From: Patiria pectinifera
Lineage: Eukaryota; Echinodermata; Asteroidea; Valvatida; Asterinidae
Assembly: GCA_029964075.1 (NCBI GenBank)
Contig: CM057138.1
Location: 13,138,932 to 13,202,931 of the forward strand
Reading direction: 5' to 3'
DNA length: 64,000 bases
The notes under the pieces were generated by a model. It was not told the DNA's origin. It made no database searches and saw nothing but the letters and a program-made list of their open reading frames with translations. Made by a program: the position numbers and the translations under genes. Shown here piece after piece: positions 3,921-43,900 of this stretch. Position 1 is the stretch's first letter. Every line of letters starts with the position of its first letter.

Positions 3921-4584
3921 TAATGTTATTATGTCATTATCGCGAAATTGCATGTACATGATCAGTACGTTTGCGCAAACCTTGTTCAGGCCTGTTGCCT
4001 AATCCCAGACTGCAGGGGGGGGGGGGTCTTTAAATCCTCAAAAGTGGAATTATTTATATGGGAGCGCGAAGCCCTGAAGGTGGGGGGTCCGGGGACGCTC
4101 CGGGAAATGTTTGGATTGCAGATGCTGTGCGGCGCAAATATCAAAATTGTAGCTTGACTCTCTATCGAAATATGGCCTTGTTATTTTGAGCCGTCACGAA
4201 TAAGAATCAGCTCAATTCGTAACTGCCTGCGAGCGACAGAGCACGTGCTTGTGTTTTGCACATGCAGCTGTAGCTGTCCACGCCCGTTTATGAAGCGACT
4301 TCGCGCGGCAACTTGTGCCGAATGTACAATCTTTTGCCATGGGTTGCAGAACCTGATTTTAGCTTCGCGGAGTTTTGAGCAGCGGTGTTTATTATTTACA
4401 TTCTCCACTTTGTTCTTATTCCCTCTTCCTTTCCCCTTCCTTCTCCAATCCTCGGAACACTAGTGCCTACGAAACACTTAATCCGGGCTTGATTCCAAGC
4501 AAGCCAATGGTTCGCCTTATGCTGCAGATCATCTCATTATTATATATTATTTTTTACTACATATCGGGGAAAACAAGAACATTT
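3921..4584. other. Unassigned repeat-like DNA with G-run
   Basis: No gene seen. It contains a run of 12 or so G at 4014-4026 and a GC-rich stretch (4050-4130) with repeated GGGG words, a composition typical of interspersed MITE ends in invertebrate genomes. I cannot assign a family. Confidence 0.3.
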
Positions 4585-16900: not shown

Positions 16901-19900
16901 CCACAAAACTGTCACCGCTCACCCTGCAAAGCTATCACACATTTTCCAATTAAAGATGTGTATACCTTGCCAAAAATCGCAATGAGCAGAGGCCTTTCGA
17001 TCATTTGATACCGGTGGCCCACTGTTTTGACCGAAGCTAGCTGATAGCCTACATGGTCTGAAGTCACCGACATTGTGTTTGCTGCTCGTGGGCGTTATTA
17101 TTTCCAGTTCAGTTTGGGTATAATGGATGGTTGACACGAGGACTATACACCTACGCACGAATGGTGGGCGTGAATTTAGGACACTCGGAATCGCTAACAA
17201 CAGCCATTAGGAGATAATTGTCCTACACCTACGTGCAAGAGTTGGATGCGTTTCGCTTGAAAACCCAAGCGAGCAGGAAGGACACCATTCTAACCGTTCC
17301 AACCATGCATTTATTTTTCATCGCCTCGATGTCTAAGTCGCCCACAGTCGCGGCCTTTGTAATATCGAACTAAGGCCAAAAAAAGTCTCCGGTTTCTGGT
17401 ATGGAGCTTGCCCAACAAGTGGTGCGGCGACGCGTTTCTTTTTTTTTTTTTAACCTGATTTTTTTTGCTTTAAATCATTGAAATGTCGGCTGATGACTGC
17501 AAATGGTGCCCGACTAAACTTTGTGCAAATAGATGGGAGTCCAGAGAGGCCACATAAAGCTTATTCTCGACCATAATCCGATCTAAAAACACGTTAAAAT
17601 TGTGCAGCAGCAGGATTCCAGTCAAACCAGTGAGTTTGGCGGTTTTGAGACCTCATCTTTCATTGGAAAAAAAACTTTTTCATTTTGCCGACGCGCATGG
17701 CTACGGCGACGCGCGCGCATACCAGAAACCGGAGACTTTTTTTTTTGGCCTAAACTTGCAATACAAACTGCTGTTAGTGTTGTAGGACTAGTTACGACTG
17801 GTTGGTAATTGGCTTTTCCGAAACGTGCGCACAAGCAATATTTTTTATTTCTGTTTTCCCCCTTCTTTTTCTTCTTTCTTTTCTCTTGTTCTATCCAAGA
17901 TCCCATTGACCTTGTCCGCGACTTTGCGGCACTTTTGATAGTTCTCATGTTTATATCTTAATCAAACTTTACACAATCAACGCCCACATAACAAAGAGAG
18001 CCTGTGTTGATGGACGTAATGATGGCATCTTCATGTGTCCAATTTGGCAATGGTTTACATCGAAATAACTCCTGGGCCGATTGGGCTAAAATGTTATATC
18101 AACAGTACGTTCAATTACTTTCCCTGCACTTACTCGTGCAAGCCCGACAGCTTTCGAATTACATCTCACGTGACTTCTCGAGCTAACTCGCGCCTGACCC
18201 ACTCGCCGATTAGCCATGGTCAAGGCATTCGTCATTATTCGTCCGTATACGCGGTAAACGATCGGCAGCATAACCTCGCTATACAGTGCATTAAAAATAC
18301 ACCGCGAACAGCGACCCCATGCGTCCACTATTCTATGCAAATCATTTGGATCCAGACGAACGCCTTGGCCTATTCGTCCATGTGCGGCTTTGGATGGTGC
18401 TCATTATTCTATCAAAAGGCGTTTTATTATTAGTCGATCGTTGCGTGGAAACTTGCATATATAGTTAGCGGTATAATGGCGAGACATGTTCTGTTACTAC
18501 TGTATACATACATATGTACACACACGTTCTGTGTGAATGTCTTACATTACACAAAGCACCAATGCACAACAAAAATGTGGTTTCTGACACGTCTGCATAG
18601 GGCGAATAGTTGCAAATGATTTGATGACGTCGAGATTTACCACAGTGTGATTACATTAGCCCCGCCTACACTTATCTGTATTTGCATATGAGGTACGTGG
18701 TGTGATGGAAATCTAGCGCAAAATAAAGAAAAACTTAAGCTTTCGCGAACGATTGGACCAAGGCGTTAGTCTGGATCCAAATGAATTGCATAAAATAGTG
18801 GCCGTATTAGGTCGCTGTTGGCGCTATATCTGTATCTGTATCTGTAGCGTACTGCTGTAGTGTATTGCATGCGCGTGGTGGCTAGCGGAATCCCTATACA
18901 ATTTTGTTAGTAGGCCCCCTTAGTCTAGAAGACAACTGCATCTCATGGAGCCTTGACTTAAAGGACTCCACCGAAGTAGCTTCCCTGACGTCTGTAGGAA
19001 GTAAGTTCCACTGAGCTGTTGTTCTTGGTAGGAAAAACTATCTGTTGCGAATTGCGGTCGTTTTTAGATGTACAGTGAACAAAGGATCATGCAGATGATT
19101 TTCAAATTTTGTCCCGTTTTGAATCAACTTGGTACTGATCAACATCAATTGCGATTTTATGATGAATGAATTTGTAGAGCAAGGTTAGTCTACATATGGT
19201 TCTGCGTTCCTCCAATGAATTCCACCCGATGTTGGTGATCATGGGTGAGACACTACTTGTGCGCCTGAAGTCCTTACAGACGAATCTGGCCGCTCTGCGT
19301 TGGACAGCTTCACGTTTATTTTTGTGTTCCTGATGGTATGGATCCCATATGCTGGCGCAATATTCTAACTTCGGTCTGACCAGGGTCTTATATGCAGTTT
19401 CTTTAACTTTGGTGGAGCAGCTGAATAGATTCCGGCGCAGGAGTCCAAGAACTTTGTTTGCTTTAGAAGTAGAGTAATACTTATGTGTTCAGCCCAGTTC
19501 AGTTTGTTGTTCAATTCTACTCCAAGGTAGATGTATTTAGTGACTGTTTGGAAAGGATTGTTGTTTATCTTATAAGACGACAGAAGAGATTTCCTTTTGT
19601 GGGTCAAGTGCATGGCATATTATTTGGTGACGTTGAATCGCATCTGCCACTTGGACTCCCAGTTACAAAGGGCATCGATGTCGTTTTAGTCTCCGGTTGT
19701 CTTCCGTAGTTTGGATAACATATGCAGTTGTCTGCCAGAATTCTCACTTGAGATGAAATTCTTTTCGGAAGGTCGTTGAGATGCAAAATGAAGAGTATCG
19801 GGCCAAGAAAAGTGCACTGGGGCACACCTGATGTCAAAGTTATTGAATTGGATGAACCGCCCGCTAGAACTACTTGTTGCGATCTTTTTTGTAATGAAAC

Positions 19901-22900
19901 TATTGATACAGTCGTGCAGAGAGCCAGAGATTCCATCATGTTTCAGCTTTGTCAATAATCTCTGATTCGGAACAAGGTCAAACGCTTTGCTGAAATCCAT
20001 GATGATTACATCGGCTTGCCCTTGGTTATCTAAGATCTTAGCAAGGTCATTCACGGTCAGAGCGAGCTGTGTTTCACACGATCGACCTTTGCGGAACCCA
20101 TGCTGTTCATTGTTGAGAACGTTGTACTTATCAATGTGACACATGATGTTAGAGTGGATACTATGTTCGAGCAACTTGCAAGGGATGGATGTAAGTGAAA
20201 TTGACCTGTAGCTTGTTTTGAAGATAGGTGAGACGTAAGCCCTGAAGATTTTCCAGTCAGAGGTAGCACCTGTGCTTCTGGCTTTATCGTATAGGCTTTA
20301 CGCTTAGGTCTCATGATGCGTTTGTGGGGCTGTTTAAACCAAAGAAGGCTGCTGTTGGCACTTGTCATCTTTAAGAGTGGGTATGTGTCTTTCCATTGCA
20401 GTTGGTAATGCGTGTCTGAATCCCATCCAGAGTGTCTGCGGACTGGGCGGAATTGACTTCGTTGGTGATGGAGTCGGCATATTAATTCATGTCATCATTG
20501 ATTTTTTATCGAAGTTTGCCTTCTTGAATAAGAATATCTTCCTACGTGGTTGTCTGGTTGTTCGGGAAGAAGTAATAATCTCCAGAGACACGATGTCGTG
20601 ATCAGACATACCAATCAGGATGTTGACATTCTGGACGAGTGAAGGAATATTTGTGAAGACCAGATCTAAAATGTTATCTTCCCTTGTAGGGATAGTCACA
20701 ACCTGATACAGATTATGGTTTTGAGCGATGTCGATCATTTGCTTGCTAAGAGCTGGGTATCGGCCCCCGGTAATGAAACATGTTTTCACCCAATCCACGT
20801 CAGGGAGGTTGAAATCTCCGGTTTAGATAATTTTGCAGTTATTTTTGAGTTTTGAAATAGCAACGTCAGGTAGACCTAGTTGGGTGCGGTAGATCTATAA
20901 AAGGCGCCGCAGTATAAGTCTTGATGTGGATACTGGCCCATACAGACAGATTTACAGTTTGTGTTCAGATCAGGTTCTTCTTTAACCATAAGATTTGATT
21001 TAATGGCTACACTCTAAAAAAGAAGTGTTCATTTCTGCCCAATATTGAGCAAAATGAAAATTTCGCTTACAAGTACCTTCTACTTGTGTCAAACGTGTTA
21101 CACATGAAAATGGTAAAATGTTACCCAACATTGACTACAAGTCCCAGCAGCACAGGAAAAAAAGGTTACAATCTTGGTCTTATTACCCAAGTGATGGGTT
21201 AAAGAAACCTGATTTACCCTACCACTGTGTAACAATTCTTTAATTGTACACGTCGAAGAGTAGAATTTACCACGACATTAGTAAAATGTTACCACTGTGT
21301 GGGGTAAACTGACGCACGTGACAACGTTTACCCAATATTGTGCACGCGTCATCACTCGTGTACAAGATGGCCGCCGCTTGTGAGACCTTCAACAATTTTG
21401 GAATTTTGAAGACATGATTTCTTTGTTCCAGGTAAGTCAGTGAAATGAATTTCAGTGTTGTTTTCTCCAAATGGGATGCTGATGTATGACGATTAATATT
21501 GGGGAGTTTGGATAAGTGACATGCCTATTATTTAGACATTTATTTGCAACTTGGACGTCACGGCTCTGCCAACCATCACGATTCCATGCACATGACGCAT
21601 GCGTTTCATGTATCGTATAGTGAGTGATCTCAGATCTAGAAACACGGAGTAAAGTGACCGACATTTGGGGAATTGTTTTTGAATGAGTTGATTGAGGGAA
21701 ATTCTAAGGCGGGCGGGCTAAATACCCCTGGTTCATTTACCGGGAGACGGTATTGTTATCGAGGGAGTGTGGGACCCTTCAAGCCAAAGCGGGAGACGGT
21801 CCACGCATGAACGCCCACGGTATGGTATTTTATATGGTGACTAATAGTTCGGGGCTCAATGGTGGCCTTATGTACAGTGGGCTCGCATACGCTGGCGAAC
21901 AAAGGGTGGGGATAGCAATAGCCTATTGTTGGGATTACAGGAATCTGTGAGTTTACGTTCACGGTCGCCTGGTACGGAAAAGTAGAAGCGCGAAGAGAAA
22001 TTGAGGAAAATTTAGTTCCTATTTCGCCACAGCGAATTATTATCTCGCCGCGGCGAATTAATTTTTCGCCGCGGCGAATAACTATCTTGCCTCGGCGAAT
22101 TACCATCTCGCCACGGCGAATTACCATCTCACCGCTGACTTGACTTTTAGAATTCGTTATAATATTTAACTTTTGATCATACTGAGTATATTTTCTGAGA
22201 AAAATAACGTTCAAAAGGGCCATATTTTTTTGGATTTACGAATTTTACTGCTCTGTTACAGCGTCTTAGTACGTAATCTATTAGCTTCGCCGGACAACCG
22301 GCACGCTTCACGGTTGCAACCATACGGCTGCCTGATCCGACCACACTATAGGCCCGACAATAACGCGGGACGGGATTTCGTTAACATTGAAAGCTTGCGC
22401 ATGTAGATCACGAAGTGCATGTAACATTAAAACTATTGAGGAACAAGGAATAGGTAAACGCCGTGTGCATTGAACAATCATGGCCTGATTTCACCATGCA
22501 CATCAGTTTCAAAAAGCAACGAAAGACTTGTCATCCGAAATATCCAGCACTTTTGGTTGGCTGGCGATAAAAACCTACCGGTCGCCGGGTGGTTAAGAGC
22601 TGACAATGTAGTTACCAACGAATAACTATCACCAGGCGATAATGTCATACAAATTGACCGATGTTGTATTGCTAACCGATCATGTAGAGCAACTTGACTT
22701 ATAGTTATAGTAGTTATAGTACAATTTCTATTCGATAATGTATTATGTGTCGACGGAAAATGTGATAAAAAAGTAATCACCACAGAACGGATACTTTCTC
22801 TACATTTGCAACGGTATTAGTCAATTGTTACGTTATCGGTAAGTGATACAGTAGGCCTATTATTTTAATGTTTGAGACGTGATCGGTTGGTGATACGTTA

Positions 22901-25900
22901 TCAATTCATTTTGTTACTTTATTAACACGATAGTGGATATTTTGCCGGAGGTAATGACGGCAAACTAACGTTTACTAAAGGTTTGCCGTCTCCGGCAAAA
23001 TATCCACTGCCTATTAACGAATGTAACAAGCTTTCTGGTCAACATGTTAGATGTCTTATCTTTTCAACTGTCTCATCCACAGTCTACATCTAAAAACAAT
23101 ATATGTTCACAGTGTTACGCCGATGAGAAAATTATCCACGGTCAATTTCAACTCATTTTTTTCATGTTATAAATATCAGCGGGAACAAAAAAATATACTT
23201 CTAAAAGAAAAGTGAATTACATAATGTATATGACACCGTGGCTCTAGGCCTACTTGTATAACTGAGCCGCTCCTTTACTTGAGCAACACCAAAACATCCC
23301 AAAATCGAAAACCTGTTGCCCTTCAGTAATGCAAAATTAATTTCTCGTGTCATAATGAATTCGCAAAAAAATTGTTCTCCTTCAGTGGGGGGTCAACTTG
23401 AGTTCAGTCCATCAGGTTATTGCGAACAAAAGAGGCAGGTTGAATGGGGCAATTTGGTGTACAAATGCATGCATTCAATTTTTGATCACTACTATATAAG
23501 TAGGGAATTACTGCATAAGTGGTCACAGTTGAGGGGTTTTGATAAATACTAGGCTTGAAATTTCTGCCCGAAGTTTAAAGAAAGAACGAAAATGCTTGGA
23601 ATTAGTTATATGTTTCAATGTAATTTTCCTTTTTTTCTGAACGGTTACATTTGGCACAGGGACAACCGATCACTTATCTCTATAATACTGACTGGATCGT
23701 CCTTCGACTTATAAATGCGTGTGCACACCCACCGTGTCGCCGTCGCACACACGCGGCCATGGCCAAAAAGAGCGTCAAAATGGCGTCAAGTGACTTCGTC
23801 CCAAACGGCCCTAAGCGCTATTTAGTCAGTATTAGTAGTCACTGCGTCCAATACTTATTTTATATGGTGACTAATAGTTCAGGGCTCGATGTCGGCCTTG
23901 TGTGCAGTTGGCTGGCATACGCTGGCGAACAAAAGCTTTTGGGTGGAGATAATAGTGATAGCCCATTGCTGGGATTACAGTAATCTGTGAGTCTACGTTC
24001 ACTGTCGCCTGGAATGGTTTTCAAAGAAAGTCTTTGTTTGAACCATGGGGTACATTAAACCTATGGTTTGGCTATCACGTGTGATGTTTACTAAAGGAAT
24101 AAAACTGTTCACCGTTCAGTTATTCTATTCGTAAATTACATTATTATATTTTCTTCTCCTCCTCCCAAGAGAGGCAAATCCCCAGTTGGACAGACATGGA
24201 TACACCGATCCTCATTCTCGATTTATTGAGTTTCATAATGTTACAAATGTATTGAATAACAACACTATGTATTTACAAATATACATGCACGGGCTCCGTC
24301 GCCAACAAAGAAGGCGCGTGTTTACCACTTCCGAGAGCCTCTTTGCCATAGACATAAAGTCTATGCCCTTGGACGGGAGACCGCGTGGGCGTATACCGTA
24401 CTGGTTCGCGCTAGAAATATGAACGATTTTTTTATCCTTATTGTGCACAAAGCTAATTTCGTTCGATTACGTTCGAATTTAACTTGTGGTGGTCTCCCAG
24501 ACTAATCCCCGCTCCCAATAACTTTGGATCACTCGAAATACGATGTGGATGGACGAGGGGCCCAGTCTAGGTCTCTCCCAACTGTCCATTTCTGGTCCCT
24601 GAAGGGGTACTCGTGCTCGGAGCCCATACAGCTAAACAGTTGAATTAAAGTTTGAATCGAAAGGTCTATTAATGTTCTGGCACCGAAAAACTCCAAATAA
24701 TTCTAACAAAGGCATTTCAAATTTCAAATTTATAGTTTTGCATTCTTTGTCGATTGTTTGTGGACAATGGTCACTGGTATCACTATCTATGTGGCGGGAA
24801 TCGCTATCACTGCTCATTATTGAACTTTTATGGAGGTTAGGTGTATCGGGTAATGTTTCCGGTTTGCCCAACTTTTTTAGTGCTCCGGTAAACTTTCAAA
24901 AAACAACTTCTGCCGTTGGAGGTTTGTGGTCATGGGCTACTCTATCTAAATACATTGACAATGAAGTGGTAAGAGATGTCACTTTTCATTGCTGATTTAC
25001 CGTGGTCATTCCGGTTTGCTCTTCTTGTTGGTATTTCGGTTAAGTTTCCTTAATGAAACGTAATACTATGGCACTCACACGCGCTTCTTGTGTGTCCTTA
25101 TTGGAGTTTGAGTATAAGTAACCATATAACCAAGTGTTTTAAAATTGTAAAAAAAAAATACCCCAAATAATTAGCCCGTTTACAAGCTGGACACTGTTTT
25201 TGTTATGTTTACTTCCATTACTTTTTTTGATAGCGAAACAGTCGAACCAGTTATTGGTAACGACCACCAAAACATACCCCTGTTTTTTAATTTCAGGACT
25301 ACCAAATTGTTTTCAAAGCTCCCTTTAAAGGTGCTGAATGGTGTGTTTTATGTACTTACAAAAGAGGCATATTTGTTTTTTTGCATTCAGCTTATTCACC
25401 ATAAGTTTCGTTTCATGCTTCCTTACAGATACTGAAAACCCTAACATCACATGTCCTAACTCAGTCATGGGCATGTCCACGGACGCTGGAGTTTCGACTG
25501 CGTCAGTTACGTGGTCACCAGTTCCGTCGGCTACGGATAATGTGGACACCTTAACTGCAAGTAACATCAGTTGTAGAGATGGTGACAGCAATCAGGTGAT
25601 GTCAGGTGGCACATTCGATTTAGGCACAACGACAGTTACCTGTAATGTATCCGATGCCGCTGGGAACTCAGACACGTGCATGTTCACCATCGAAATCATC
25701 GGTAAGACTGAGTAGTGGCTCTACATTTTTTTTTCTGGCTATGGCAAATCTAAGAAAGTCAGATTCACCTGTCAACTTTCTGATTGCATGTTTATTAAAA
25801 TTAAAGTTTCCAGACCTCATGAATGCACATACTCTGATTATTAAGTTGTTATTGAAAATATATACATGCTGTTAATACTGACATTACGGCACCTAACCAT

Positions 25901-28900
25901 ATAGCAACATATTTTAAAGTTCAATACAAAAGAAAGTAATACGCCTTTTTACAAGCTGGAAATTGCTTTTCTTATTTTTTTATTTTCACTGGTAAAGTTT
26001 ATTGTTTGTTTTCTCGATAGCTTTAATAGTATTGAAATATTTGTTGTGAAGTGCATAACCGCACTATTTGCAAACATTTGCTAAAATGCTAGACCAATGA
26101 GAAACAATCGCTCATGCTTTTTGGTTACACAAACACATAAAAACACATGTTATTAGCCCTTTTATAAACTGTACATTGCTTTTCTGATTTTTACTTTCAA
26201 TTCTTAAGTTTTCGTTCATTTTTGATAGTTTTGTTAGATAGTTTAGAACACTTGGTTGTGAAATAATAAAAAGCGAATTACTGCAATGCGCAAATTACTC
26301 AAATGATAAACCAATGCAACCACCAAAACCTTCCCCTGTCTACAGTTATATAAGGACTACCAAAATTGTTGTCAAAGCTTCCTAAAAGGTACTGAATTGT
26401 GTATTTATTTACTTAAAAATAGAGGCAGCTTTGTTGTTTTGGCATCCTGCTTATTCACCCTCTTATTCACCCTGCTTTACAGATACTAAGACCACTACCA
26501 CTCCAGCAGACACCACCATTTCAGGAGACACCACCCCTCCAGACACCACCCCTCCAGACACCAACACTTCAGACACCACCCCTCCAGACACCACCCCTCC
26601 AGACACCACCCCTCCAGACACCACCCCTCCAGACACCACCCCTCCAGACACCACCCCTCCAGACACCACCCCTCCAGACACCACCCCTCCAGACACCAAC
26701 ACTTCAGACACCACCCCTCCAGACACCACCCCTCCAGACACCACCCCTCCAGACACCACCCCTCCAGACACCACCCCTCCAGACACCACTCCTCCAGACA
26801 CCACTCCTCCAGACACCACCCCTCCAGACACCACCCCTCCAGACACTCCTACTCGAGACACCACCCCTCCAGACACCACCCCTCCAGACACCATCCCTCC
26901 AGACACCATCCCTCCAGTCACCAACACTTCAGACACCACCCCTCCAGACACCATTCCTCCAGACACCACCCCTCCAGACACTAACACTTCAGACACCAGC
27001 CCTCCAGACACCAGTCATCAAGACACCACCCCTCCTGACACCAACACTTCAGACACCACCCCTCGAGACACCACCCCTCCAGACACCACCTCTCCAGACA
27101 CCACCCCTGCAGGCACCACCCCTCCAGACACCAACCCTCCAGACACCACTCCTCCAGGCACCATCCCTCCAGACACAAACACTTCAGACACCACCCCTCC
27201 GGACACCATTCATCCAGACACAACTCCTCCAGACACCACCCCTCCAGACACCACCACTTCAGACACCAGCCCTCCAGACACCAGTCATCAAGACACCACC
27301 CCTCCAGACACCACCCCTCTAGACACAAGCACTTCAGACACCACCCATCCAGACACCACCCCTCCAGACACCAACACTTCATACACCACCCCTCCAGACA
27401 CCACCCCTCCAGACACCACCCCTCCAGACACCAACACTTCAGACACCACCCCTCCAGACACCACCCCTCCAGGCACCACCCCTCCAGACACAAACACTTC
27501 AGACACCACCCTTCCGGACACCATTCATCCAGACACAACTCCTCCAGACACCAACCCTCAAAACACCACCCCTCCAGACACCACTCCCCCAGACATCAAC
27601 ACTTCAGACACCAACCCTCCAGACACCTATCCTCCAGACACCACCCCTAAAGACACCACTCCTCCAGACACCACCCCTCCAGACACCACCCCTCTAGACA
27701 CAAGCACTTCAGACACCACCCATCCAGACACCACTCCTCCAGACACCACTCCTCCAGACACCACTCCTCCAGACACCACTCCTCCAGACACCACTCCTCC
27801 AGACACCACTCCTCCAGACACCAATTCTCCAGACACCACTCCTCCAGACACTACCCTTCCAGACACCACCCTTAAAGACACCACTCCTCCAGACACCACC
27901 CCTCCAGACACCACTCCTCCAGACACCACACAACAAGACACCACCCCTTTAAACACCACCCCTAAAAACACCACTCCTCCAGAAACCACTCCTTCAGACA
28001 CCACCCCGAAAAACACCACTCCTCCAGACACCACCCCTCCAGACACCACCCCAACAGACACCACTCCTCCAGACACCACTCCTCCAGACACCACTCCTCC
28101 AGACACCACCCCTCCAGACACCACTCCTCCAGACACCACTCCTCCAGACACCACTCCTCCAGACACCACTCCTCCAGACACCACCCCTACAGACACCACT
28201 CCTCCAGACATCAACCCTCCAGACACCACTCCTCCAGACACCACACCTCCAGAACCCAGCCCTACAGACAGCACTTGTGGAGACTACACTACTCCAGACA
28301 ACACTCCTCCAGACACTACCCCTCCAGACACTACTCCTCCAGACACCACTCCTCCAGACACCACCCCTACAGACACCACTCGTCCAGACACCACTCCTCC
28401 ACACACTACTCCTCCAGACACCAACCCTCCAGACACCAACCCTCCAGACACCACCGCTCCAGACACCAACCCTCCAGAAACCACTCCTCCAGACATCCGC
28501 CCTCGAGACACCACTGCTCCAGACACCACTCCTGCAGACACCACCCCTAAAGACACCACTCCTCCAGACACCACTCCTCCATACACCACCCCTCCAGAAC
28601 CCAGCCCTACAGACAGCACTTGTCGAGACTACACTCCTCCAGACAACACTCCTCCAGACGCCACCCCTCCAGACACTACCCCTCGAGACACCACTCCTCC
28701 AGACACCACTCCTCCAGACACTTGCCCTCCAGACACCACCCCTGAAGACACCGCTCCTCCTGACACCACCCCTCCAGACAGCACTCCTCCAGACACCATT
28801 CCTCCAGACACCACTCCACCAGACGCCACCCCTCCAGACACCACCCCTCCAGACACCACTCCTCCAGAAACCACTCCTTCAGATACCTCCCCTCCAGACA

Positions 28901-31900
28901 CCACTCATCCAGATACCACTCCTTTAGACAGCACTCCTCCAGACACCACCCCTAAAGACACCACTCCTCCATATACCACACCTCGAGACACCACCCCTCC
29001 AGACACCACCCCTCAGGACTCCACTCCTCCAGACACCACCCCTCCGGGCACAACCTCTCAGGACACCAGTCTTCCAGATACCACCTCTCAAGACACTACC
29101 CCTCCAGACACAACTCCTCCAGACACCACTCACCCAGACACCACCCCTCCAGACACCACTCCTCCAGACAACACCCCTCCAGACTCCACCCCTACATACA
29201 CTACCCCTCCAGACACCATCCCTCCAGACACCACCCCTCCAGACACCACTCCTCCAGACACTAACCCTCCACACACCACCACTCCAGACACCAATCCTCA
29301 AGACACTACCCCTCCATACACCACCTCTAAAGACACTCCCCCTCCAGGCACAATTCCTCTAGACACCACTCCTCCAGACACCACCCCTCCAGAAACCACC
29401 CCTCCAAACACCACACCTCCAGACACCACTCCTCCAGGCACCACTGCTCCAGGCACCACTCCTCCAGACACCACTCCTTCAGACACCACCCCTCCAGACA
29501 CCACCCGTCAAGACACCACCCCTCCAGACACCACCCCTCCAGACACCACCCCTCCAGACACCACCCCTCCAGACACCACCCCTCCAGACACCACCCCTCC
29601 AGACACCATCCCTCCGGACACCACCCCTCCAGACACCACTCCTCCAGACACTACCTCTCCAGACACAACCTCTCCAGAGACCACCCCTCCAGACGCCTCT
29701 CTTCCAGACAGCACTCCTCTTGACACCACCCGTCCAGACACCACCCCTCCAGACACCACCCATTCAGGAAACACCACCTCTCTTGGAAACGCCTCCCCTC
29801 CAGACACCACCCCTTCAGGAAGCACCACCTCTCTAGGAGACACCTCCCCTCCAGACACCACCCCTTTAGGAAACACCACTTCTCTAGGAGACACAATCCC
29901 TCCAAGAGACATCACCACCAATCAAGTAACATTTTCCACTGCAGGATCAACTAGTACTGCAATGTCAACCACCGTCTGCCAATGTGGTTAGTTACCATTT
30001 AATTAAGTAATGTCAAGTAACCCGGTATGACCCAAGACCATACAGCAGTTGGGGTACTTTCTAATTCTCTATTTTTTGAGACCCTTTGGGGGTAATCTTT
30101 TTTTGGAATTGTTTTAATCATTGACAATTTTAAATAAAGAACATAGCACAAATGATATAGAAGGTGATTACGACTTTCAATGTACATTAACAATGGCTGC
30201 CACGTGCATGTACATTGCACATGGTACATTGCACATGGTACATTGCACATGTACACCCGCGTTTGCATACGTAACATATGTACAAATACTAACACTGTCA
30301 GCTACATCACATTTGAAAGAAAATTAGTTCAGTTAAATTCGTTATTGTTCAAAATGCAGGGCATATATTAATCTACTAGCATTTATGGACGACATAAACA
30401 AAGGCATGTTCATCTTTACTTCAACTCCAGCATTTCACGCCCTTTTCAAACACAAGAGGTTTTTCTAGCATCTAATAACACAGTCCACCGTCATCTTGAT
30501 TCTTCATCTAACATCTTCCACTAATTAGGAATGATCAAAATGGGGGTTATTTCACCTTGGCTATTTCACTTAAAAAGGCTTAGCAGATGTGCTACAAACA
30601 GACACAAATGATGGATTTGGAACTTCATTGGTTCAAAAAATTGCGGAAGTCCGTGTAGCATATATGCTATAATGGTGCATAGCGGGATAAAGGTGTGATA
30701 GTCACGATCGCAGTGTCGCTTTTTCCCCTGGACTGTCATGAAGTATTCTTAACAAGAAACTTGAATACTTCTTATGCTGAAAAAAACGCATTGATATTAA
30801 GTCGAACCAGTATTGATCTGCTAATTTCAATGTGAAGGAAATATATAATTCAGTGGTAAACAGCCTTACGCAAGCTGAGAAGAAATTATGATTTTTGTAT
30901 TGATGATAGCTCTGATTATCTGCCCAATGAAAATACTCTTCACGAAGAACAATTTATTTCAGCAATTATGAAATATTAAGTCACCAAAGTTCCCTCGATT
31001 GTGGAGATTAGCAGGTAGATTCAGGAAATATGTTAATATTTTCCTGTCACAACTGCAGTTTTAAGGCTCACTTTAAAGTCACAAACTACCTTTATCAGTT
31101 GCGTGTGGTGCAAAACATAAATGTCCCAAAATTCATTGGGGAAAGTTAAGTGGAAATTGGGGTGAGGTGTCATTAATAGTAAAGATTGTGTGCACATTTT
31201 TATGGGAATTTCTTCATACAAAAGGTACAATTTTCCGTGATTATCACTACCACAAGTATAACGTTTGGGAGATACTTTAGCCTCAAAAGTTAAACCATAA
31301 GGAGACATGTCGAATAAGGGAGAAATCTCAATGTCTCCCCGATGCCACAGGTCCTATTTAGACGCAAAATTTTATTGTGAGATTAGCCTAGTTCGGTTAC
31401 ACGAAAATCCATATTTGCGAGTTTCTCTTCCCAGCTTTTTTTTCAACAAAACATTCCTTCTCCAATTAACAGTAGTTAAAACAACACGGGGAAATCAAAT
31501 TGTCATTCTTATGGTTGGTGTTGCCCTCTTATAGAAACTTTAAGGATAAAGTTTCACCCTAACATCGAAACGAGGAGAATATTACTAGTGATTATTATCA
31601 CTTTGGTCGAACAAATATTTGTATTCTCAATTCAAAAGAAATAAAGGAACAGCTAGATGTATTTCTCCCTGTAACAAACACATTAGGGACCGTGACCATT
31701 CAGCCCTGTTATGAAAAGGGCCCCCCGGTACCTCGTCCGGTCCAAAGCCAGTCCGGTCTTCAGCCCAGTCTCGTCCGGTACATGGTCCTGTCTGAACATA
31801 AGTTTTGAAGTCAGTCAGGCGCATCAATTTATTGCCCTTCAGAGAACGTCCAGAGCAGAACAATAGCAGACTTACCGGATTAAAGATAAAATCCTGCCAT

Positions 31901-34900
31901 AATGCCGTGGTAATTTACGGTCCCATTGTGCGCGAAACCCAACGGCAGGGGTTTTGATCTGTGCTGACGAAAGTGTTCTATTGTTTCGCGCTGAGAGATG
32001 AAAACCACAAGCGGGTTTCTTCTGAGATATTATTACATGTGTCAATACTTGCTCCTGGGCCGGTAGCTGGGACGGTACGAGAGGACCTCTTGGGAGGGGA
32101 CGAGCTTACGGGGGGGGGGGGGGCCTTTTCATACCGGGGCTGAATGGTCATGGGCCCTTACATCATGCTTAGAGAATGAAGTAATTCAAAGGTCATTGCA
32201 AAGTCGAGCTTAAAATTGGATGACTGAAATACTAAGACTCACCTTTTTAGTCTTTCATTTGAGCTAAGTGATGAACTAGTGACTGGCGCCTTTGAATGAT
32301 CATCCAGATACCGTGCGCTTTATATAATGTTCTGTTAATTGTTATTATTATTATTACAATGAAGCTGACAGACTCATTTTATTTTTGTTGAAGATGGAGA
32401 ATCGCCAGTTGTCACTGTTCCAACTGTTGAAGATCAATGCATTGATGCAGCTCAAGCTCCAGCTTCTGTCACATGGGACGAAGTCACTGCCACAAACATT
32501 TCTGCTGAGAACATCAGTTGCACGGACGCTGAAGGAAACGTGGTGTCTCTGACAGGAGGGTCATTTGAAGTAGAATGTCACACAGTGACCTGCGTTATTA
32601 CTCTCCCTTGTGGATGCAAGATAGAAGAATCGTTCTATTTCTATATTATAGGTACGACAATCTTTTGATCTGTGTATAAATGGGACTGACATGACAACTA
32701 AAAAGTATTTTATTAAAATAAAAAATAACCTTGGGTGTCACACTGATAATGCCCTGCAGTAAATACACCCTCCCCCAAGAAATTATGGATGCTAAAATTC
32801 ATATTGCGAAGCGAACTTGTCCATCTGTCTATATCAACGACTTAAACACGTTAATATTGGGCGAATTGCAACAACCTCTGCAAATGTTATAACTGGATAC
32901 ATTTTAAGGTGTATTTGAGAAAACCTTATCAAACGCAACTTTTACATATTTTATCATGTTATATATGCAATACTGGTTGGTCGATGGAGTATGATTGAAA
33001 AAAAAATACTTAAGATTGTATATTTTGCCTTACAGCAATTCCGATATTTACCGTACCAACTGTTGATGATCAGTACATTGCACCTGGCCAAGCATCCATT
33101 CAAGTGACATGGGATAAAGTGAACGCAACCAACTCGGATGGTCAGGCAATAACGTGTACGGATGATGCAGGAGGAACCAATGTGACAGTCACAGGAGGAG
33201 ACTTTCCAGCAGGGTCTCATAATGTAACCTGCACTGTGACCAATAATGGTGGTTGCACGGCATCAACATACTTCACATTCGATGTGATCGGTAAGATTTG
33301 ATTTAAACTCCCATGCTTTAATATATGACATATGGGAGAAGAAATATTAGGGGTAAACCAGTTGGTGTTATTTTTTTGTGGTCTGCTTCGATTGACAGCC
33401 ACATGCATGTATTCTGAGAAGCACTCTGCGAGGTGGAGGAGTGTTCAGGTCTCATGGACAAAACAGTGACCAGTGACCAATACAATCTTGAAATAAAGAA
33501 ATTAATTGAGATCCTTTCACAAATTCAGTCAGTTATAGCAAAGAATCACCAGTGTCAAGAAATCAAAAATACGAAGTGTCATATTTAAGGCTTTATTAAG
33601 AACTTAGTCGTTGAGATGTCTTGCCTAATGAGAAAAAAAAACACCTTTTTTTTCTGAAGAACTGACCGAAACGACAGTTTCAAGCACGACTGAAACACTG
33701 TCTGATACAACAGTATCAAGCACCAATCCAGTAACATCCAAAACTTCAGTATCAAGCACCAATTCAGGATCAACCACCATTCCAACAACTTCCACCTCAG
33801 ATGGACCTCCTTCAACTACAACCCTGGACACCACTTTAGGTAATATCACCTCAAACTTTTCTCTCATTTGTTTTGCATCGAAACAAAGAACTACCATTCC
33901 AGAGACAAGTATTGTACTTTATGGAGCTCGCGTTCAATAACCAAAATGCAATGCAAGATTTGCAATATATAAGAACAAACCGATGTTGCTGAAAACGTCA
34001 TCACTCCTAAACTCCTTGCCTAATGAGGAATAACTATTTTTTTCTGAAGAACTGACCGAAGCGACAGTTTCAAGTACGACTGAAACACTGCCCGATACAA
34101 CAGTATTAAACCCCCCTCCATTAACATCCACAACTCCTGTATCAAGCACCACTTCAGGACCAACCACCATTCGTACGACTACCGCCGTAGATGGACCTCC
34201 CACAGCAACACCAGGCAATACTTCAGGTAAAATCACCTCAGACACATTTTCTCTCATAGGTTTTGTAACTGATTCCCGGGGGTTTTCCTCAGAATATTCT
34301 TTTGGGCTTTTCCTCCCACCTCTAAAACTGTATTTTCTTCTCATTGGCTTCTCTCTACAGTTTTTTTCCCCAGACTTTCGAGCTACAGTGCTTACAAATC
34401 CTTTGTTTCATTACCAGAAATAAAAAAAACAAAAAAAAGTGTTGATTTGTTGTCCAAGCACACTAGTGTTGACAGTAATTCTGGCCCTTGGATCTCCTCC
34501 TATAGCCTTCCAGTGTTGCACATGTACTTGAGTCAGTACCAACCTTGAGTCAGTACCAAACTAATGACAAACTGGCATATTGTTAAATCTTTTTATGTGT
34601 GAACTCTCGGCAAATTCTGTATGCCCCTAGAATCAACCACCGCTCCAGGATCAACCAACGCTCCCGTATCAACTATCCCCCCAGTAACATCCACCACTTT
34701 GGGATCAACTCCTACTGTGGTATCAACCACAGTTTCAACATCCATCCTAGATGGACCTCGCACTACAGTACCAACCACCGCTGCAGTAACAACCATCTGC
34801 CAATGTGGTAAGTGATACATTAACATCCTTTATTGAATCAATTGTAAATAGAGTTGTGAGCGTCAGGATAATAATAATAACTGGATTTGTCTAGGATAGC

Positions 34901-37900
34901 AGTCCATGTGGAAAAGGATGCATATGAGGAAGTTTGAAGGCGTGAGAAATACATTAAATTATATCATCCCTGAAAAGAGTGAACATTATCTGTACCTGGT
35001 GTCTTTGTCTGGAAAGTCATTTGTGTATTCTTAACACGAAATTTGAGGTACTTCTTATGCTTAAAAAAAAACCACCCGAAATGTTTATCGTGTCGAACCA
35101 GCGTCAATCACTTAATTGGATAATTGATGATAACTCGGGTTATCTGACGCACGCAACATTTTAATGGCTTTTAAACTGGAATGGGCCATGCGATGAAGTT
35201 TTCTGAGGAACACAATGTGTGTAACTTTCTAATTCTCTTGAATACATGAAAACAAAAATGATTTCCTTTTTTCTTTTGTTTTTAATGTGTACTTCTTTAA
35301 ACATTTAAAATTTGCAATGCTTTTAATGTGTACTTCTTTAAATATTTAAAATTGGCAATTCTTTCCTAACAATTGCGGGTGCTGTTGCATTGACGTCAGT
35401 CCGGGAAGACGCTGTTTCGTTAAAGGATTTTCTGATCAAATCGTGAACCCCAAATTTGCTCATTGAGAACAAATGCGAGAAAATGTTGCTCATAGGCCAT
35501 GTAGTTACACAACAACAAATCACAAATGTAAAGAAAATTGATGACAGCAAAATATCCTAAATTCGTGTTTCTTTTGTGCTGTAATAGTTGTAGCATTGAG
35601 TTTTCTGTCTTTCATGCATTTTTTATATAAATTCGTATTAGCGTAAAAAAAACCCTCAAAAACCCCAAAAAACAAAATACCCTTCAAAATGGCAAAACGA
35701 AAATTGAAAATAAGGTTAAATGGGACACAAAGGTACATTATTAAGGTTAGCAATAAAACTTATTTTTCATGGGGCCTTTACTATTAAGAAAAAAAAAAGA
35801 CTTTATATTTCAGCAATTGGATTTTAAACAAATAGTCTCTGAATCAGCAGAGCCACATGTGATTGACTTTTGGAACTTGTGGTTATCATCTCATAATCAA
35901 CCCTCACTTACTTCTATTGAAGTTGTGTTTTTTTGTGATAACAATATTCAGTCTCAAACGGAGATAAGGAAGAGCTGTGTGTTTGTCCCTGTAATACCCA
36001 ATGCTACAAATATAGTGGGGATGTTGCGCACGTTGTGCTTGAAAGTGAATAATTGAAAAAAAACCCACAAAAACAATTCGTTAACTTTATGAATCTGAAA
36101 GCGTGATGTGGTTATTTTTTAACAGATGGAGAACCGCCAGTTGTCACTGTTCCAACTGTTGAAGATCAATGCATTCATCCATCTCAAGCTCCGGTTAAAG
36201 TGACATGGGATGAAGTCACTGCCACAAACGTTTCTGCTGAGAACATCAGTTGTACAGACACTGCCGGAAACATAGTGTCTCTGACTGGAGCTTCCTTTGG
36301 AGTAGAATGTCACACAGTGACCTGCGTTATTACTCTCCCTTGTGGATGCAAAATAGAAGAATCCTTCTATTTCTATATTACAGGTAACAATGTCATTCGT
36401 CTTGAACCGACATGAACCGACATAACAAACTAAACACGTCTATTATTGACACGGAAATTAGCCTTGGGTGCCATATTGATTGTAGATTAAATGACAGTGA
36501 ATATTTTCCTTAAAAAAAGTAACTATGGACATTGTTATGCTACACATTCCTGTTGTTAACTGTTAGTAGCTTGCCTCTCTGTCTAAACCGAATGAATTAT
36601 AAATGATAAAACCTGAAAACAAATGGAATCATTTGATCAAATGCTACCAGGGGCGTAGCACGAAAAGTTTTATTGGGGGAGGGGTTACAATTTTGTGAAA
36701 AGGGCACTTGCACATCCCTGGTGAAATGTAAACAGGGTTTTTTTCTCCGGACTCTTGGCCTCCGTAAAATCTCAATACATGTGCGATCTTCTGCAAAAGG
36801 CAGCTTAAACGGCAGGTGCCACAAAAAGGGCACCACTTTTTTTTTTTAAAGTGCACTTTATCAGGAAAAGGGCACTTCTTAACAAAAAAGGCACTCTTTA
36901 CAAATTATTGGGGGGTCAAACCCAATGAAAAAAGGGCATTTGAATGGCAAAAGGCAGTCTTTACAAAATATTGGGCTGGGTGTAAATACCCCCCTTACCC
37001 AGCCGCTGGCTACGCCAATTGTTATCCTGGATTATTTGACAGAGCCGTGTCAATCATATTTTAAATATTTGTCAAATGAATACACTTGATGATTTTTCTT
37101 AGTAGGAACATTTAATATTTCGATTTGTTCGATAAGTTGGAGTATAAATAAATGAATGAAATTCTGTATAAAAGTGCGTTTGTTCCATTACAGCAATACC
37201 GATAGTTACTGTGCCAACTGTTGATGATCATTACATTGAGCCTGGCCAAGCATTACTTCCAGTGACATGGGATAAAGTGAACGCAACCTACGCAGATGGC
37301 CAAGCAATCAATTGTACGGATGATGCAGGGGGAACCAGTGTGACAATCACAGGAGGAGCCTTTCCAGCAGGGTCTCATAATATAACCTGCACTGTGACCA
37401 ATAATGGTGATTGCACGTCATCAGCACACTTCACATTCGATGTAATCGGTAAGATTTAATTGGAAATTCACACGTTGGAATGTAAGACATACGGGGGAAG
37501 AAACACAAGCTGTATTATTTGTTATTACTTCTGTCTGCTGATTAATGGCATACGTGTATTCCTAAAACCACTAAGGTTAAAGAGTTTAAATTTCATGGAA
37601 AGCCAAGTGGCCAGTGTACTCAAAATCAAGCTCCTCTAAAAATATTCCAAATTATATTTAAAAAACATGGAAACCTAGGGTTAGATTGTGATCCCTTTAC
37701 GAACTGAGTCTCTGAAAACGAGAACAAGTGTCAGAAAAGCACGCCTTTGAGGTGCCCAATTAAGGCCCTGTAAATGATTCATTTATTGTTAAGTCTTATC
37801 TAATAAAATTATTTTGTCTTCCGAAGAACTGACTGAAGCATCAATGTCTTTATTAACCATCACTGAAACAATGTTTGTCTGATTTAACAGTGTCAAGCAC

Positions 37901-40900
37901 CCCTCTAGTAACATCCTCCTCGCCTGTATCAAGCACCACTTCAGGATCAACCACCATTCAAACAACTACCACCGGAGATGGACCTCCCTCAACAACGACA
38001 GTCACCACTTCAGGTAAGATTACATCAATCCCTTTTCTTTAAAAAAAATTTTGCCACGGGTCAGCCACCTACCGTTCCAGAAACAGCCAGAATTCATCAT
38101 GTAAATTCCATTGGATATTTTCTAAAAGCAATGTAAGATTAACAACTAACGGAAACCAACTTCATATTCTGAAAAGGTCGTCTCTTCTAAACTGACCTCA
38201 CCCTTTACAAAAAAAATGATTCCAGAATCAAGACCGATTCACCCCTTGACACCCAACACCCAACTGTCATTGAATTGTCACAAATAGATGATCTCCCTCT
38301 GAGGTAATTGTTCTAGAGTAAGTAGTAGGCATATTGTGGAAATAGTTATTGAGTGACCTCTCGGCACATTCTATATAAGCCTAGAATCAGTAAGATTTAA
38401 TTTGTACCTCGTTTCAGAAACACAGGAATAGAAACACATTATAAACAACTTTTGATTTTTTGGTTGATCTCTTCGGATTGAGGATAAAAAAGAAATATGC
38501 ACTCTACCATGGGGAATCTTTGAAAATCGAGAAATCTTGCCCGAAGATCGCCTTCTTGTGGCCTTCCAATGGTGTACATGTATTTGAGTTAGTACTAGGC
38601 TCGAGTCAGTTCCAAAATAATTGCAAATTAGCATATTGTTAAAATCGTTGCACTGAACTCTCGGCACATTACATATGCCCCTAGAATCAACCACCACACC
38701 AGGATCAACCACTGCTCCAGTATCAACCAACCCTCAGGTATCAACTATCCCTCCAGTAGCATCCACCGCTTCGGGGTCAACTACTCCTCTAGTATCCACT
38801 ACAATTTCAACATCTTCCATCCCAGATGGACCTCCCACTTCATCACCAACCACCGCTCCAGTAACAACCATCTGCCAATGTGGTGAGTGATAATTTGACA
38901 TCCTTTCTTAATAAAATGACAATTAAATCATGAGCATAACTATAGCAGGACACGTCCAAAAGGATGTACTACTCAGTTGGGTTTTGATGGTGTTAGAAAA
39001 GAATGAAATGCTAGCTTGGCAACGAAAAGTGAATACTATCAATCCATGTGTGTCTTTTCCTGGTGTGTCATTGATGTATTTTTAACACAAAACTTGAAGT
39101 TAGGTCAACTCTTCTTAATACGAGCTTGGCCAGCATTAAAATAACAAATAACGCACATGCTCATTTAAATGTACTGTCTTGAAGAAAACAACACCAATTC
39201 CTTGTAAGGATGATTCTGAAAAACCCGTTAATTTTTTTTTCGCAGATGGAGAACCCCCAGTTGTCACTGTTCCAACTGTTGCAGATCAATGCATTCATGA
39301 ATCTCAAGCTCCTGTGTCTGTCACATGGGATGAAGTCACTGCAACAAACATTTCTGCTGAAAACATCAGTTGTACAGACGCTGAGGGAAACGTGGTTTCT
39401 CTGACTGGAGCCTCATTTGGAGTAGAATGTCACACAGTGACCTGCATTATTACTCTCCCTTGTGGATGCAAAATAGAAGAATCCTTCTATTTCTATATAA
39501 CAGGTAACAATTTCATTCGATTTAGGTATAAACTGAACCAGCATGACCAACTAAACATGTATGATTTGTATCATTGACTAAGGTATCATCTTTGGGTGTT
39601 ATTTTGAACATATGATTACATGGGAGTAGATATGTTCAATGAAAAAAATAACAACAAACAGTTGGATGTTACAGTTTCTTTTATGAACTGTATAGCATGT
39701 CTCTGTATCTCATCTGCATGATATAAAAGAAGCAATAGTAGGCCAACACATTCTGAGATCAAACGAAATCAGTGGATACAATGTATCCCACGATTATATG
39801 AGAGAACCTTGTCAATCACATTTTTACATACTGGAACATGTATACGTAAAATTGTCTTTATAAGAGTGCATTATGTTGCTTAACAGCAATACCTGCAATA
39901 ACTGTGCCAACTGTTGACGATCAGTACATTGAGCCTGGACAAGCATTACTACCAGTGACATGGGATCAAGTGAACGCAACCAGCACAGATGGTCAAGCAA
40001 TCAATTGTACGGATGATGCAGGAGGAAGCAATGTTACAGTCACAGGAGGAGCCTTTCCAGCAGGGTCTCATAATATAACCTGCACTGTGACCAATAATGG
40101 TGATTGCACGTCATCAGCACACTTCACATTTGATGTAATCGGTAAGATTTAATTGGAAATTCACACGTTGGAATGTAAGACATATGGGGGAAGAAACACA
40201 AGCTGTATTATTTGTTATTACTTCTGTCTGCTGATTGATGGCATACGTGTATTCCTAAAACCACTCTAAGGTTAAAGAGTCCAAGTTTCATGGAAAGGCC
40301 AGTGACCAGAGTACTCAAAATCCAGCTCCTATAAAAATAGTCCAAATTATATAAAAAAAAAAAATGGAAACATAGGGTTAGATTGTGATCCCTTTACGAA
40401 CTGAGTCTCTGAAAACGAGAACAAGTGTCAGAAAAGCACGCCTTTGAGGTGCCCAATTAAGGCCCTCTAAATGATTCATTTATTGTTAAGTCTTATCTAA
40501 TAAAATTATTTTGTCTTCCGAAGAACTGACTGAAGCATCAATGTCTTTATTAACCATCACTGAAACAATGTTTGTCTGATTTAACAGTGTCAAGCACCCC
40601 TCTAGTAACATCCTCCTCGCCTGTATCAAGCACCACTTCAGGATCAACCACCATTCAAACAACTACCACCGGAGATGGACCTCCCTCAACAACGACAGTC
40701 ACCACTTCAGGTAAGATTACATCAATCCCTTTTCTTTAAAAATTTTTTTTGCCACGGGTCAGCCACCTACCGTTCCAGAAACAGCCAGAATTCATCATGT
40801 AAATTCCATTGGATATTTTCTAAAAGCAATGTAAGATTAACAACTAACGGAAACCAACTTCATATTCTGAAAATGTCGTCTCTTCTAAACTGACCTCACC

Positions 40901-43900
40901 CTTTACAAAAAATATGATTCCAGAATCAAGACCTATTCACCCCTTGACACCCAACTGTCATTGAATTGTCACAAATAGATGATCTCCCTCTGAGGTACTT
41001 GTTCTAGAGTAAGTAGTAGGCATATTGTGGAAATAGTTATTGAGTGAACTCTCGGCACATTCTATATAAGCCTAGAATCAGTAAGATTTAATTTGTACCT
41101 CGTTTCAGAAACACAGGAATAGAAACACATTATAAACAACTTTTGATTTTTTGGTTGATCTCTTCGGATTGAGGATAAAAAAGAAATATGCACTCTACCA
41201 TGGGGAAACTTTGAAAATCGAGAAATCTTGCCCGAAGATCGCCTTCTTGTGGCCTTCCAATGGTGTACATGTATTTGAGTTAGTACTAGGCTCGAGTCAG
41301 TTCCAAAATAATTGCAAATTAACATATTGTTAAAATCGTTGCACTGAACTCTCGGCACATTACATTTGCCCCTAGAATCAACCACCACACCAGGATCAAC
41401 CACTGCTCCAGTATCAACCAACCCTCAGGTATCAACTATCCCTCCAGTAGCATCCACCGCTTCGGGGTCAACTACTCCTCTAGTATCCACTACAATTTCA
41501 ACATCTTCCATCCCAGATGGACCTCCCACTTCATCACCAACCACCGCTCCAGTAACAACCATCTGCCAATGTGGTGAGTGATAATTTGACATCCTTTCTT
41601 AATAAAATGACAATTAAATCATGAGCATAACTATAGCAGGACACGTCCAAAAGGATGTACTACTCAGTTGGGTTTTGATGGTGTTAGAAAAGAATGAAAT
41701 GCTAGCTTGGCAACGAAAAGTGAATTCTATCAATCCATGTGTGTCTTTACTGGTGTGTCATTGATGTATTTTTAACACAAAACTTGAAGTTAAGTCAACT
41801 CTTCTTAATACGAGCTTGGCCAGCATTAAAATAACAAATAACGCACATGCTCATTTAAATGTACTGTCTTGAAGAAAACAACACCAATTCCTTGTAAGGA
41901 TGATTCTGAAAAACCCGTTAATTTTTTTTCGCAGATGGAGAACCCCCAGTTGTCACTGTTCCAACTGTTGCAGATCAATGCATTCATGAATCTCAAGTTC
42001 CTTTGTCTGTCACATGGGATGAAGTCACTGCAACAAATATTTCTGCTGAAAACATCAGTTGTACAGACGCTGAGGGAATCGTGGTTTCTCTGACTGGAGC
42101 CTCATTTGGAGTAGAATGTCACACAGTGACCTGCATCATTACTCTCCCTTGTGGATGCAAAATAGAAGAATCCTTCTATTTCTATATAACAGGTAACATT
42201 TTTATTCGATTTAGGTATAAACTGAACCAGCATGACCAACTAAACATGTATGATTTGTATCATTGACGAAGGTATCATCTTTGGGTGTTATTTTGAACAT
42301 ATGATTACATGGGAGTAGATATGTTCAATGAAAAAAATAACAACAAACAGTTGGATGTTACAGTTTCTTTTATGAACTGTATAGCATGTCTCTGTATCTC
42401 ATCTGCATGATATAAAGGAAGCAATAGTAGGCCAACACATTCTGAGATCAAACGAAATCAGTGGATACAATTTATCCCACGATTATATGAGAGAACCTTG
42501 TCAATCACATTTTTACATCCTGGAACATGTATACGTACAATTGTCTTTATAAGAGTGCATTATGTTGCTTAACAGCAATACCTACAATAACTGTGCCAAC
42601 TGTTGACGATCAGTACATTGAGCCTGGACAAGCATTACTACCAGTGACATGGGATCAAGTGAACGCAACCAGCACAGATGGTCAAGCAATCAACTGTACG
42701 GATGATGCAGGAGGAAGCAATGTTACAGTCACAGGAGGAGCCTTTCCAGCAGGGTCTCATAATATAACCTGCACTGTGACCAATAATGGTGATTGCACGT
42801 CATCAGCACACTTCACATTCGATGTAATCGGTAAGATTTAATTGGAAATTCACACGTTGGAATGTAAGACATATGGGGGAAGAAACACAAGCTGTATTAT
42901 TTGTTATTACTTCTGTCTGCTGATTGATGGCATACGTGTATTCCTAAAACCACTCTAAGGTTAAAGAGTCCAAGTTTCATGGAAAGGCCAGTGACCAGAG
43001 TACTCAAAATCCAGCTCCTATAAAAATAGTCAAAATTATATTTAAAAAAATGGAAACATAGGGTTAGATTGTGATCCCTTTACGAACTGAGTCTCTGAAA
43101 ACGAGAACAAGTGTCAGAAAAGCACGCCTTTGAGGTGCCCAATTAAGGCCCTGTAAATGATTCATTTATTGTTAAGTCTTATCTAATACAATTATTTTGT
43201 CTTCCGAAGAACTGACTGAAGCATCAATGTCTTTATTAACCATCATTGAAACAATGTTTGTCTGATTTAACAGTGTCAAGCACCCCTCTAGTAACATCCA
43301 CCACGCCTGTATCAAGCACCACTTCAGGATCAACCACCATTCAAACAACTACCACCGGAGATGGACCTCCCTCAACAACGACAGTCACCACTTCAGGTAA
43401 GATTACATCAATCCCTTTTCTTTAAAAAAAATTTTGCCACGGGTCAGCCACCTACCGTTCCAGAAACAGCCAGAATTCATCATGTAAATTCCATTGGATA
43501 TTTTCTAAAAGCAATGTAAGATTAACAACTAACGGAAACCAACTTCATATTCTGAAAATGTCGTCTCTTCTAAACTGACCTCACCCTTTACAAAAAATAT
43601 TATTCTAGAATCAAGACCTATTCACCCCTTGACACCCAACTGTCATTGAATTGTCACAAATAGATGATCTCCCTCTGAGGTACTTGTTCTAGAGTAAGTA
43701 GTAGGCATATTGTGGAAATAGTTATTGAGTGAACTCTCGGCACATTCTATATCAGCCTAGAATCAGTAAGATTTAATTTGTACCTCGTTTCAGAAACACA
43801 GGAATAGAAACACATTATAAACAACTTTTGATTTTTTTAAAAAAGGTTGATCTCTTCGGATTGAGGATAAAAAAGAAATATGCACTCTACCATGGGGAAA

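Follow-up and report, generated by a model that had tools for sequence, protein, structure and literature searches.

Within a 64,000-nucleotide stretch of the Patiria pectinifera genome (the window; C10:13138932-13202931, contig CM057138.1, of a 613-Mb genome), we analyzed a giant mucin exon that lies in a gene rich in hyalin repeat (HYR) domains, and we conclude, with a probability of roughly 0.7, that this exon arose in two steps, the fusion of HYR-array DNA to a small linker exon of the class called linker 2 and then the expansion of a 15-bp unit, which together produced a Thr/Pro rod inside an HYR protein. The first step would have joined a splice acceptor and the first bases of an HYR exon, both from an HYR array, to a linker-2 exon body, and the resulting chimeric exon would have kept three features of the linker: its 1-1 phase, its CQCG end, and the intron that follows. 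In the second step, an 18-bp Ser/Thr/Pro unit of the linker would have become one codon shorter, and the shortened unit of 15 bp would have expanded in frame to 216 copies. If transcribed, the exon would encode a Thr/Pro rod, probably densely O-glycosylated, that could act as an extended spacer within a large extracellular protein with HYR domains and a C-terminus that is partly MUC4-like. All feature positions are those of the window and refer to the plus strand unless stated otherwise, and they are collected in Table 1.

The giant exon is genuine and has the anatomy that an earlier, sequence-only reading had described. It is preceded by GCTTTACAG, its 3′ boundary reads TGCCAATGTG/GTTAGT with CQCG as the C-terminal residues, and the HYR exon that comes next is of type A, so our exon mapping agrees with the claim that phase, end, and position directly before an HYR-A exon are those of linker 2. 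The estimate of about 216 repeat units was likewise borne out by the count, and the linker-2 exons, put at 59–66 residues, have 59 and 66 codons with the acceptors that we chose. Mucin PTS domains are long Ser/Thr/Pro-rich tandem-repeat regions for which a Ser plus Thr content of about 40% serves as a threshold. The giant exon contains such a region, and over 1169 residues its Ser plus Thr content is 40.0% and its Pro content 29%.

The rear of the exon and the intron that follows it resemble linker 2. When the last 87 nt of the giant exon were compared with a tile of the 18-mer, the score was 166, which none of 500 codon shuffles reached, and the scores against linker-2 exons L2_1 and L2_2 were 143 (0/500) and 116 (1/500), but the score against the 15-mer tile was just 46, which 229 of 500 shuffles reached. 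For the entire 3′ edge, the 18-mer gave a score of 408 and the 15-mer one of 373, with 0/500 shuffles for each. Our initial test of the downstream intron used a 1.1-kb alignment, and because part of this intron (31013-31585) matches dispersed repeats (40 of the 57 candidates scored), we narrowed the test to the core at 30669-30873 and repeated it. This core matches all five introns that run from a linker-2 exon to an A exon (L2-to-A introns) at 70–76% identity, and 0 of 200 background segments reach any of these matches, whereas none of 13 other introns stands out, since 18 to 108 of 200 controls score at least as high. When the query is the whole downstream intron, all five L2-to-A introns pass as well (0/100 controls each). 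Because five of five L2-to-A introns match compared with none of the 13 others, and because the tail fits the 18-bp unit rather than the 15-bp unit, these alignments support placing the tail and the downstream intron in the linker-2 class.

The front of the exon is of HYR type. The segment 26319-26500 is 76% identical across 189 aligned positions to the acceptor flank of the preceding exon, HYR0, and the upstream intron of the giant exon scores 488 against that flank (0/100 controls) vs 124 (37/100) and 200 (3/100) against two introns that run from a linker-1 to a linker-2 exon. A homologous upstream intron and acceptor, which would mark a linker-2 exon, were thus not found. The flank matches the acceptor region in 70 of the 72 units of an HYR array that lies upstream of the window, at 68–80% identity, with 40 of these matches extending to 26488 or beyond, and the 700 bp preceding each of the five linker-2 exons hold no match to it. 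When used as a DNA query, the upstream flank found nine places besides itself: five in or just before the HYR array, one elsewhere on C10, and three, on C1, C14, and C18, that cover just ~26230-26317. Because the flank matches 70 of 72 array units and no linker-2 upstream region, HYR0 and the giant exon's front appear to be a fragment of the upstream HYR array that was moved here. Since the flank is HYR-type through the acceptor and about nine exon bases, and since the tail and the downstream intron are linker-2-type, the giant exon appears to be a chimera that took Asp-Thr-Lys from the HYR side and the remainder from the linker side. The sequence-only reading had proposed that one linker exon simply gained a minisatellite, and that its 3′ end and flanking introns should align with linker 2. 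This holds for the tail and the downstream intron, but the upstream intron, the acceptor, and the first exon bases are HYR-type, so the proposal does not stand as the whole history.

The core array has the consensus GACACCACCCCTCCA, which encodes DTTPP, and among its 216 units are 48 exact copies and 101 distinct units. There are 340 differences from the consensus, of which 127 are synonymous and 213 nonsynonymous, and there are no indels. The first 18 units are the closest to the consensus, with 0.39 differences per unit vs 1.17–2.00 in other windows of the array, which suggests that the array has grown recently at its 5′ end. Two units of the 18-bp type (TTTTPA and DTTISG) follow immediately on the HYR-derived bases. 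This 5′ edge of the array scored 103 against the 18-mer tile, with 27 of 35 positions in agreement, and 3 of 500 codon shuffles reached this score. Because units at the array edges fit the 18-bp period of the linkers, the 15-bp unit is probably the 18-bp unit minus one codon. The linkers were Ser/Thr/Pro-rich beforehand, and the earlier view of a mucin backbone born de novo is therefore not upheld.

Several results weigh against the two-step history. With the whole downstream intron as the query, the A2-to-B2 intron (1/100 controls) and the L1_2-to-L2_2 intron (2/100) also come close to passing. Dispersed copies of the intron core were not found, but the same search missed the L2 introns too, so the core could be a diverged dispersed repeat. 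At the 5′ edge, the match to the 18-mer is short (35 nt), the 15-mer tile is matched as well (86; 2/500 shuffles), and the similarity to linker-2 exons is weak, with 41/500 and 31/500 shuffles reaching the scores. The L1_2-to-L2_2 intron is also somewhat high against the giant upstream intron (the score of 200 above, and 9/200 controls in another comparison), and this similarity may be a remote trace of linker 2 on the 5′ side. Finally, the ratio of nonsynonymous to synonymous differences relative to expectation is 0.78 for all units and 0.99 when only distinct units are counted; the residues of the array look nearly unconstrained, while the frame is maintained.

The same tail and downstream intron would be found if a complete linker-2 exon had expanded and gene conversion or local duplication had later replaced its upstream intron and acceptor with an HYR-type flank, and the weak similarity to the L1_2-to-L2_2 intron speaks for this order of events. 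We nevertheless consider it unlikely, as the HYR similarity enters the exon to 26491, so that at minimum the exon start would have to have been replaced, and as none of the five linker-2 exons is preceded by a match to the flank. Our preferred history places the fusion before the expansion. The weak constraint on the residues would suit an array that is not translated, either because it is spliced out or because the gene is dead. This strikes us as quite improbable given that a single open frame runs through 1168 codons, that the 340 core differences include no indel, that none of the 14 GT dinucleotides inside the exon forms a GTRAG donor, and that splice-like sites lie at matching phase. Only the sense frame is free of stops across the array, and the remaining five frames hold 5 to 27 stops. 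This absence of stops is weak evidence by itself because no single change in the consensus codons can yield a stop.

When we used the linker-2 protein to search the genome with E values up to 1, the matches were its five window copies only. With an HYR-A exon as the query, 150 of 549 candidates were listed, and among these were five close relatives outside the window (74–86% identity); these five, each with at least 74% identity and with flanks, were taken further. Three of them (L009, L010, and L011) have a CQCG exon within 700 bp before the A exon and no HYR between the two. The main part of these CQCG exons consists of 24-bp units (TEPTTTVT), and their lengths are 411, 231, and 309 bp, respectively, with the acceptors chosen. 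The 5′ part in L009 and L010 consists of 18-bp units that run into the 24-bp units, which indicates that the unit length has changed elsewhere in this exon class. For the other two relatives (L012 and L013), the nearest CQCG exon is 3.5 kb upstream and has 18-bp units (STTTPG), with no HYR match in between. In a tree of 13 A-type exons, L012 and L013 fall outside the other nine family members, a position that fits an 18-bp ancestor, and the same tree gives no branching order among A1, A2, A3–A6, and the 24-bp clade. The possibility that the giant exon lies outside the linker-2 class, with CQCG, phase, and position having converged in an unrelated Thr/Pro exon, is in keeping with the HYR-type 5′ flank and with the introns after these paralogous CQCG exons, none of which is distinctly similar to the giant downstream intron (scores reached in 21 to 89 of 100 controls), but it is very improbable given the homology of that intron to all five L2-to-A introns and the homology of the tail.

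A second giant mucin exon lies in L019, upstream of the L010 stretch (2640-4301 in reverse-complement orientation; C10, minus strand). It is 1662 bp long with phase 1-1 and consists of 24-bp units, of which TRF counts 66.5 copies; it ends in TTCG and precedes an A-like HYR exon. The claim that the siblings of the giant exon stayed small therefore holds for the five window linker-2 exons, at 177–198 bp, but not for every member in the gene family, given this exon of a related linker class. The upstream intron of the L019 exon scores 667 and 392 against those of the L011 and L010 exons (0/100 controls) and does not match that of L009 (16/100), so the L019 exon is likely related to the L011 and L010 exons, although the match may include an intronic tandem repeat of L011. 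Its downstream intron scores 279 against the giant downstream intron, 283 against that of L2_1, and 259 against that of L012, with a maximum of 252 among 100 controls, and common dispersed repeats may explain these scores. Given the chosen acceptors, the related exons comprise 77, 103, 137, and 554 codons, compared with 1168 in the giant exon. At L033, a locus on C7, two open frames contain units of six and eight residues, and both frames end in TTCG. From these comparisons, we tentatively suggest, at somewhat less than even odds, that the HYR gene family is a nursery of mucins, in which one slot (a Ser/Thr/Pro linker with a Cys-Gly end and phase 1-1 before an HYR exon) would repeatedly seed mucin rods, with locus-specific units of 15, 18, and 24 bp derived from a common 18-bp ancestor; the copy in the window would have done so after fusing to an HYR acceptor.

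Two further sets of repeats were seen. Repeat-only matches on C7 and C3 (L016 and L017) were rejected as relatives because they have repeats of another kind and a CQCG pattern was not found in them. Beyond the window, at L027 5530-6993 (~89299-90762 in window coordinates), there is an 18-bp array of ~81 copies with Thr/Pro repeats and no single open frame throughout.

The exon order in the host gene is HYR0, giant exon, HYR-A1, HYR-B1, linkers, tandem cassettes, and then further HYR exons to 54 kb, and strand, order, and phase suggest that the giant exon belongs to a single gene together with HYR0 and the later exons. All five linker-2 exons end in CQCG at phase 1 (177 bp in one and 198 bp in four), and the lengths of these exons and of their paralogues depend on the acceptors chosen among candidates. 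The cassettes, each consisting of A, B, linker 1, and linker 2, occupy 37163-48183, measure ~2.69 kb each, and are 94.7–96.3% identical; they represent a recent duplication of this four-exon block. Pfam scans were run on single open frames. Besides the NIDO match, they gave C8-3_MUC4 at L025:595-918, beyond the window (48.5 bits; cut-off 25), and EGF domains, also beyond the window. VWD reached 16.0 bits, below its cut-off of 22.9, and AMOP had no match up to E 5 within 58798-59322, in a scan that left out the exons between 59.3 and 62.8 kb. By these matches, the C-terminus would be partly MUC4-like.

Table 1. Positions of the giant mucin exon, its parts, and other features within the window
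Feature	Position	Strand	Remarks
HYR0 acceptor flank	25263-25446	+	similar to 26319-26500
HYR0 exon	25429-25701	+	phase 1-1; Pfam HYR 49.6 bits; up to 93.6% DNA identity to exons of the 72-exon array
HYR-type 5′ flank (intron end, acceptor, first nine exon bases)	26319-26491	+	by flank homology
Giant mucin exon	26483-29986	+	3504 bp, 1168 codons, phase 1-1, open
5′ edge, 18-bp-type units	26485-26526	+	TTTTPA, DTTISG; by tile scores
Core minisatellite	26527-29766	+	exactly 216 x 15 bp, gap-free, DTTPP
3′ edge and non-repeat tail	29767-29986	+	linker-2-like, CQCG end; by tile and exon scores
Downstream intron	29987-32393	+	30669-30873 homologous to L2-to-A introns; 31013-31585 dispersed repeat
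HYR-A exon A1	32394-32651	+	Pfam HYR 20.4 bits, just below cut-off 21.7
HYR-B exon B1	33036-33290	+	Pfam HYR 26.3 bits
Linker-2 exon L2_1	34631-34807	+	59 codons
Linker-2 exon L2_2	38685-38882	+	66 codons
Linker-2 exon L2_3	41376-41573	+	198 bp
Linker-2 exon L2_4	44068-44265	+	198 bp
Linker-2 exon L2_5	46727-46924	+	198 bp
NIDO match in downstream same-strand exons	58864-59112	+	44.5 bits, cut-off 25

A-type HYR domains such as that at 32394-32651 have six cysteines vs four in HYR0. Because all six HYR-A exons in the window follow a CQCG exon without an intervening HYR exon, a disulfide between the two cysteines of the CQCG linker and the A-type domain is possible. Elsewhere, L019 (one Cys, then five) fits this idea and L033 (one Cys, then four) does not.

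The upstream HYR array consists of 72 consecutive exons at C10:13061177-13097012, which lie ~78 to 42 kb before the start of the window and 68–104 kb upstream of the giant exon, with a unit of ~506 bp and 80–92% protein identity to HYR0. Read by eye, the sequence beyond it, at window coordinates -30842 to -30474, contains EGF-like frames together with a transmembrane segment and its tail, and the gene of the array therefore seems to stop short of the window. The region between the two HYR genes holds a 1373-residue retroelement-like frame (-36169 to -32051, by eye) as well as reverse-transcriptase-like fragments, seen by eye at 780-3250 and at 19686-20297 (minus strand). Just 5′ of HYR0, positions 25338-25428 read MVCFMYLQKRHICFFAFSLFTISFVSCFLT in frame, with an ATG directly after a stop; MVCFMYLQKRHICFFAFSLFTISFVSCFLT resembles a signal peptide and may be the gene start, or alternatively it may be a mere polypyrimidine tract.

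Turning to known systems, the birth of mammalian mucins by in-frame exonic variable number tandem repeats (VNTRs), termed mucinization, is treated by Pajic and Gokcumen (2025), describing Pajic et al. (2022) (PMC12776774). In the part of that account considered here, as in the giant exon, in-frame expansion of a repeat whose unit length is a multiple of three gives a Ser/Thr/Pro-rich mucin domain. That account covers mammals and proline-rich precursors, whereas the precursor here would be a member of a duplicated class of Ser/Thr/Pro linker exons, the exon has a chimeric start, and siblings that did not expand lie next to it. A preprint on vertebrate mucins with a large VNTR exon (PMC13345508) likewise describes, in the part considered, one large tandem-repeat exon, and we claim no homology of the repeats. 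As for HYR proteins, HYR0 and B1 score above the HYR cut-off of Pfam, and A1, just under it, has two more cysteines than HYR0. Judged by titles and the starts of abstracts, in a search outside which most subscription papers lay, none of the papers listed for HYR together with mucin, NIDO/AMOP, echinoderms, exon expansion, or threonine-rich repeats deals with mucin exons inside HYR genes.

MUC4-like proteins with NIDO, AMOP, and VWD occur in cnidarians, and CUB, ZP, FN3, and SEA are named as their extra domains in the sections of PMC9080433 that we draw on; the term HYR does not occur in its main text. Set against the MUC4 arrangement given there, the starfish gene has in common a PTS-rich region, NIDO, a MUC4-type C8-3 domain, and then EGF, and it differs in having many HYR domains between the PTS exon and NIDO, no AMOP in the one stretch scanned, and a VWD below the cut-off. 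The birth of mucins by such repeats is thus known in mammals, and what differs here is the chimeric start and the small siblings that are still adjacent. A precursor is rarely to hand beside its mucin product, but in this gene the giant exon occurs together with five small siblings that have the same tail and intron, so that the starting unit, the change in codon length, and the expansion can be compared within one genome, and the case suggests that the birth of a mucin can come after, or go along with, the fusion of exons.

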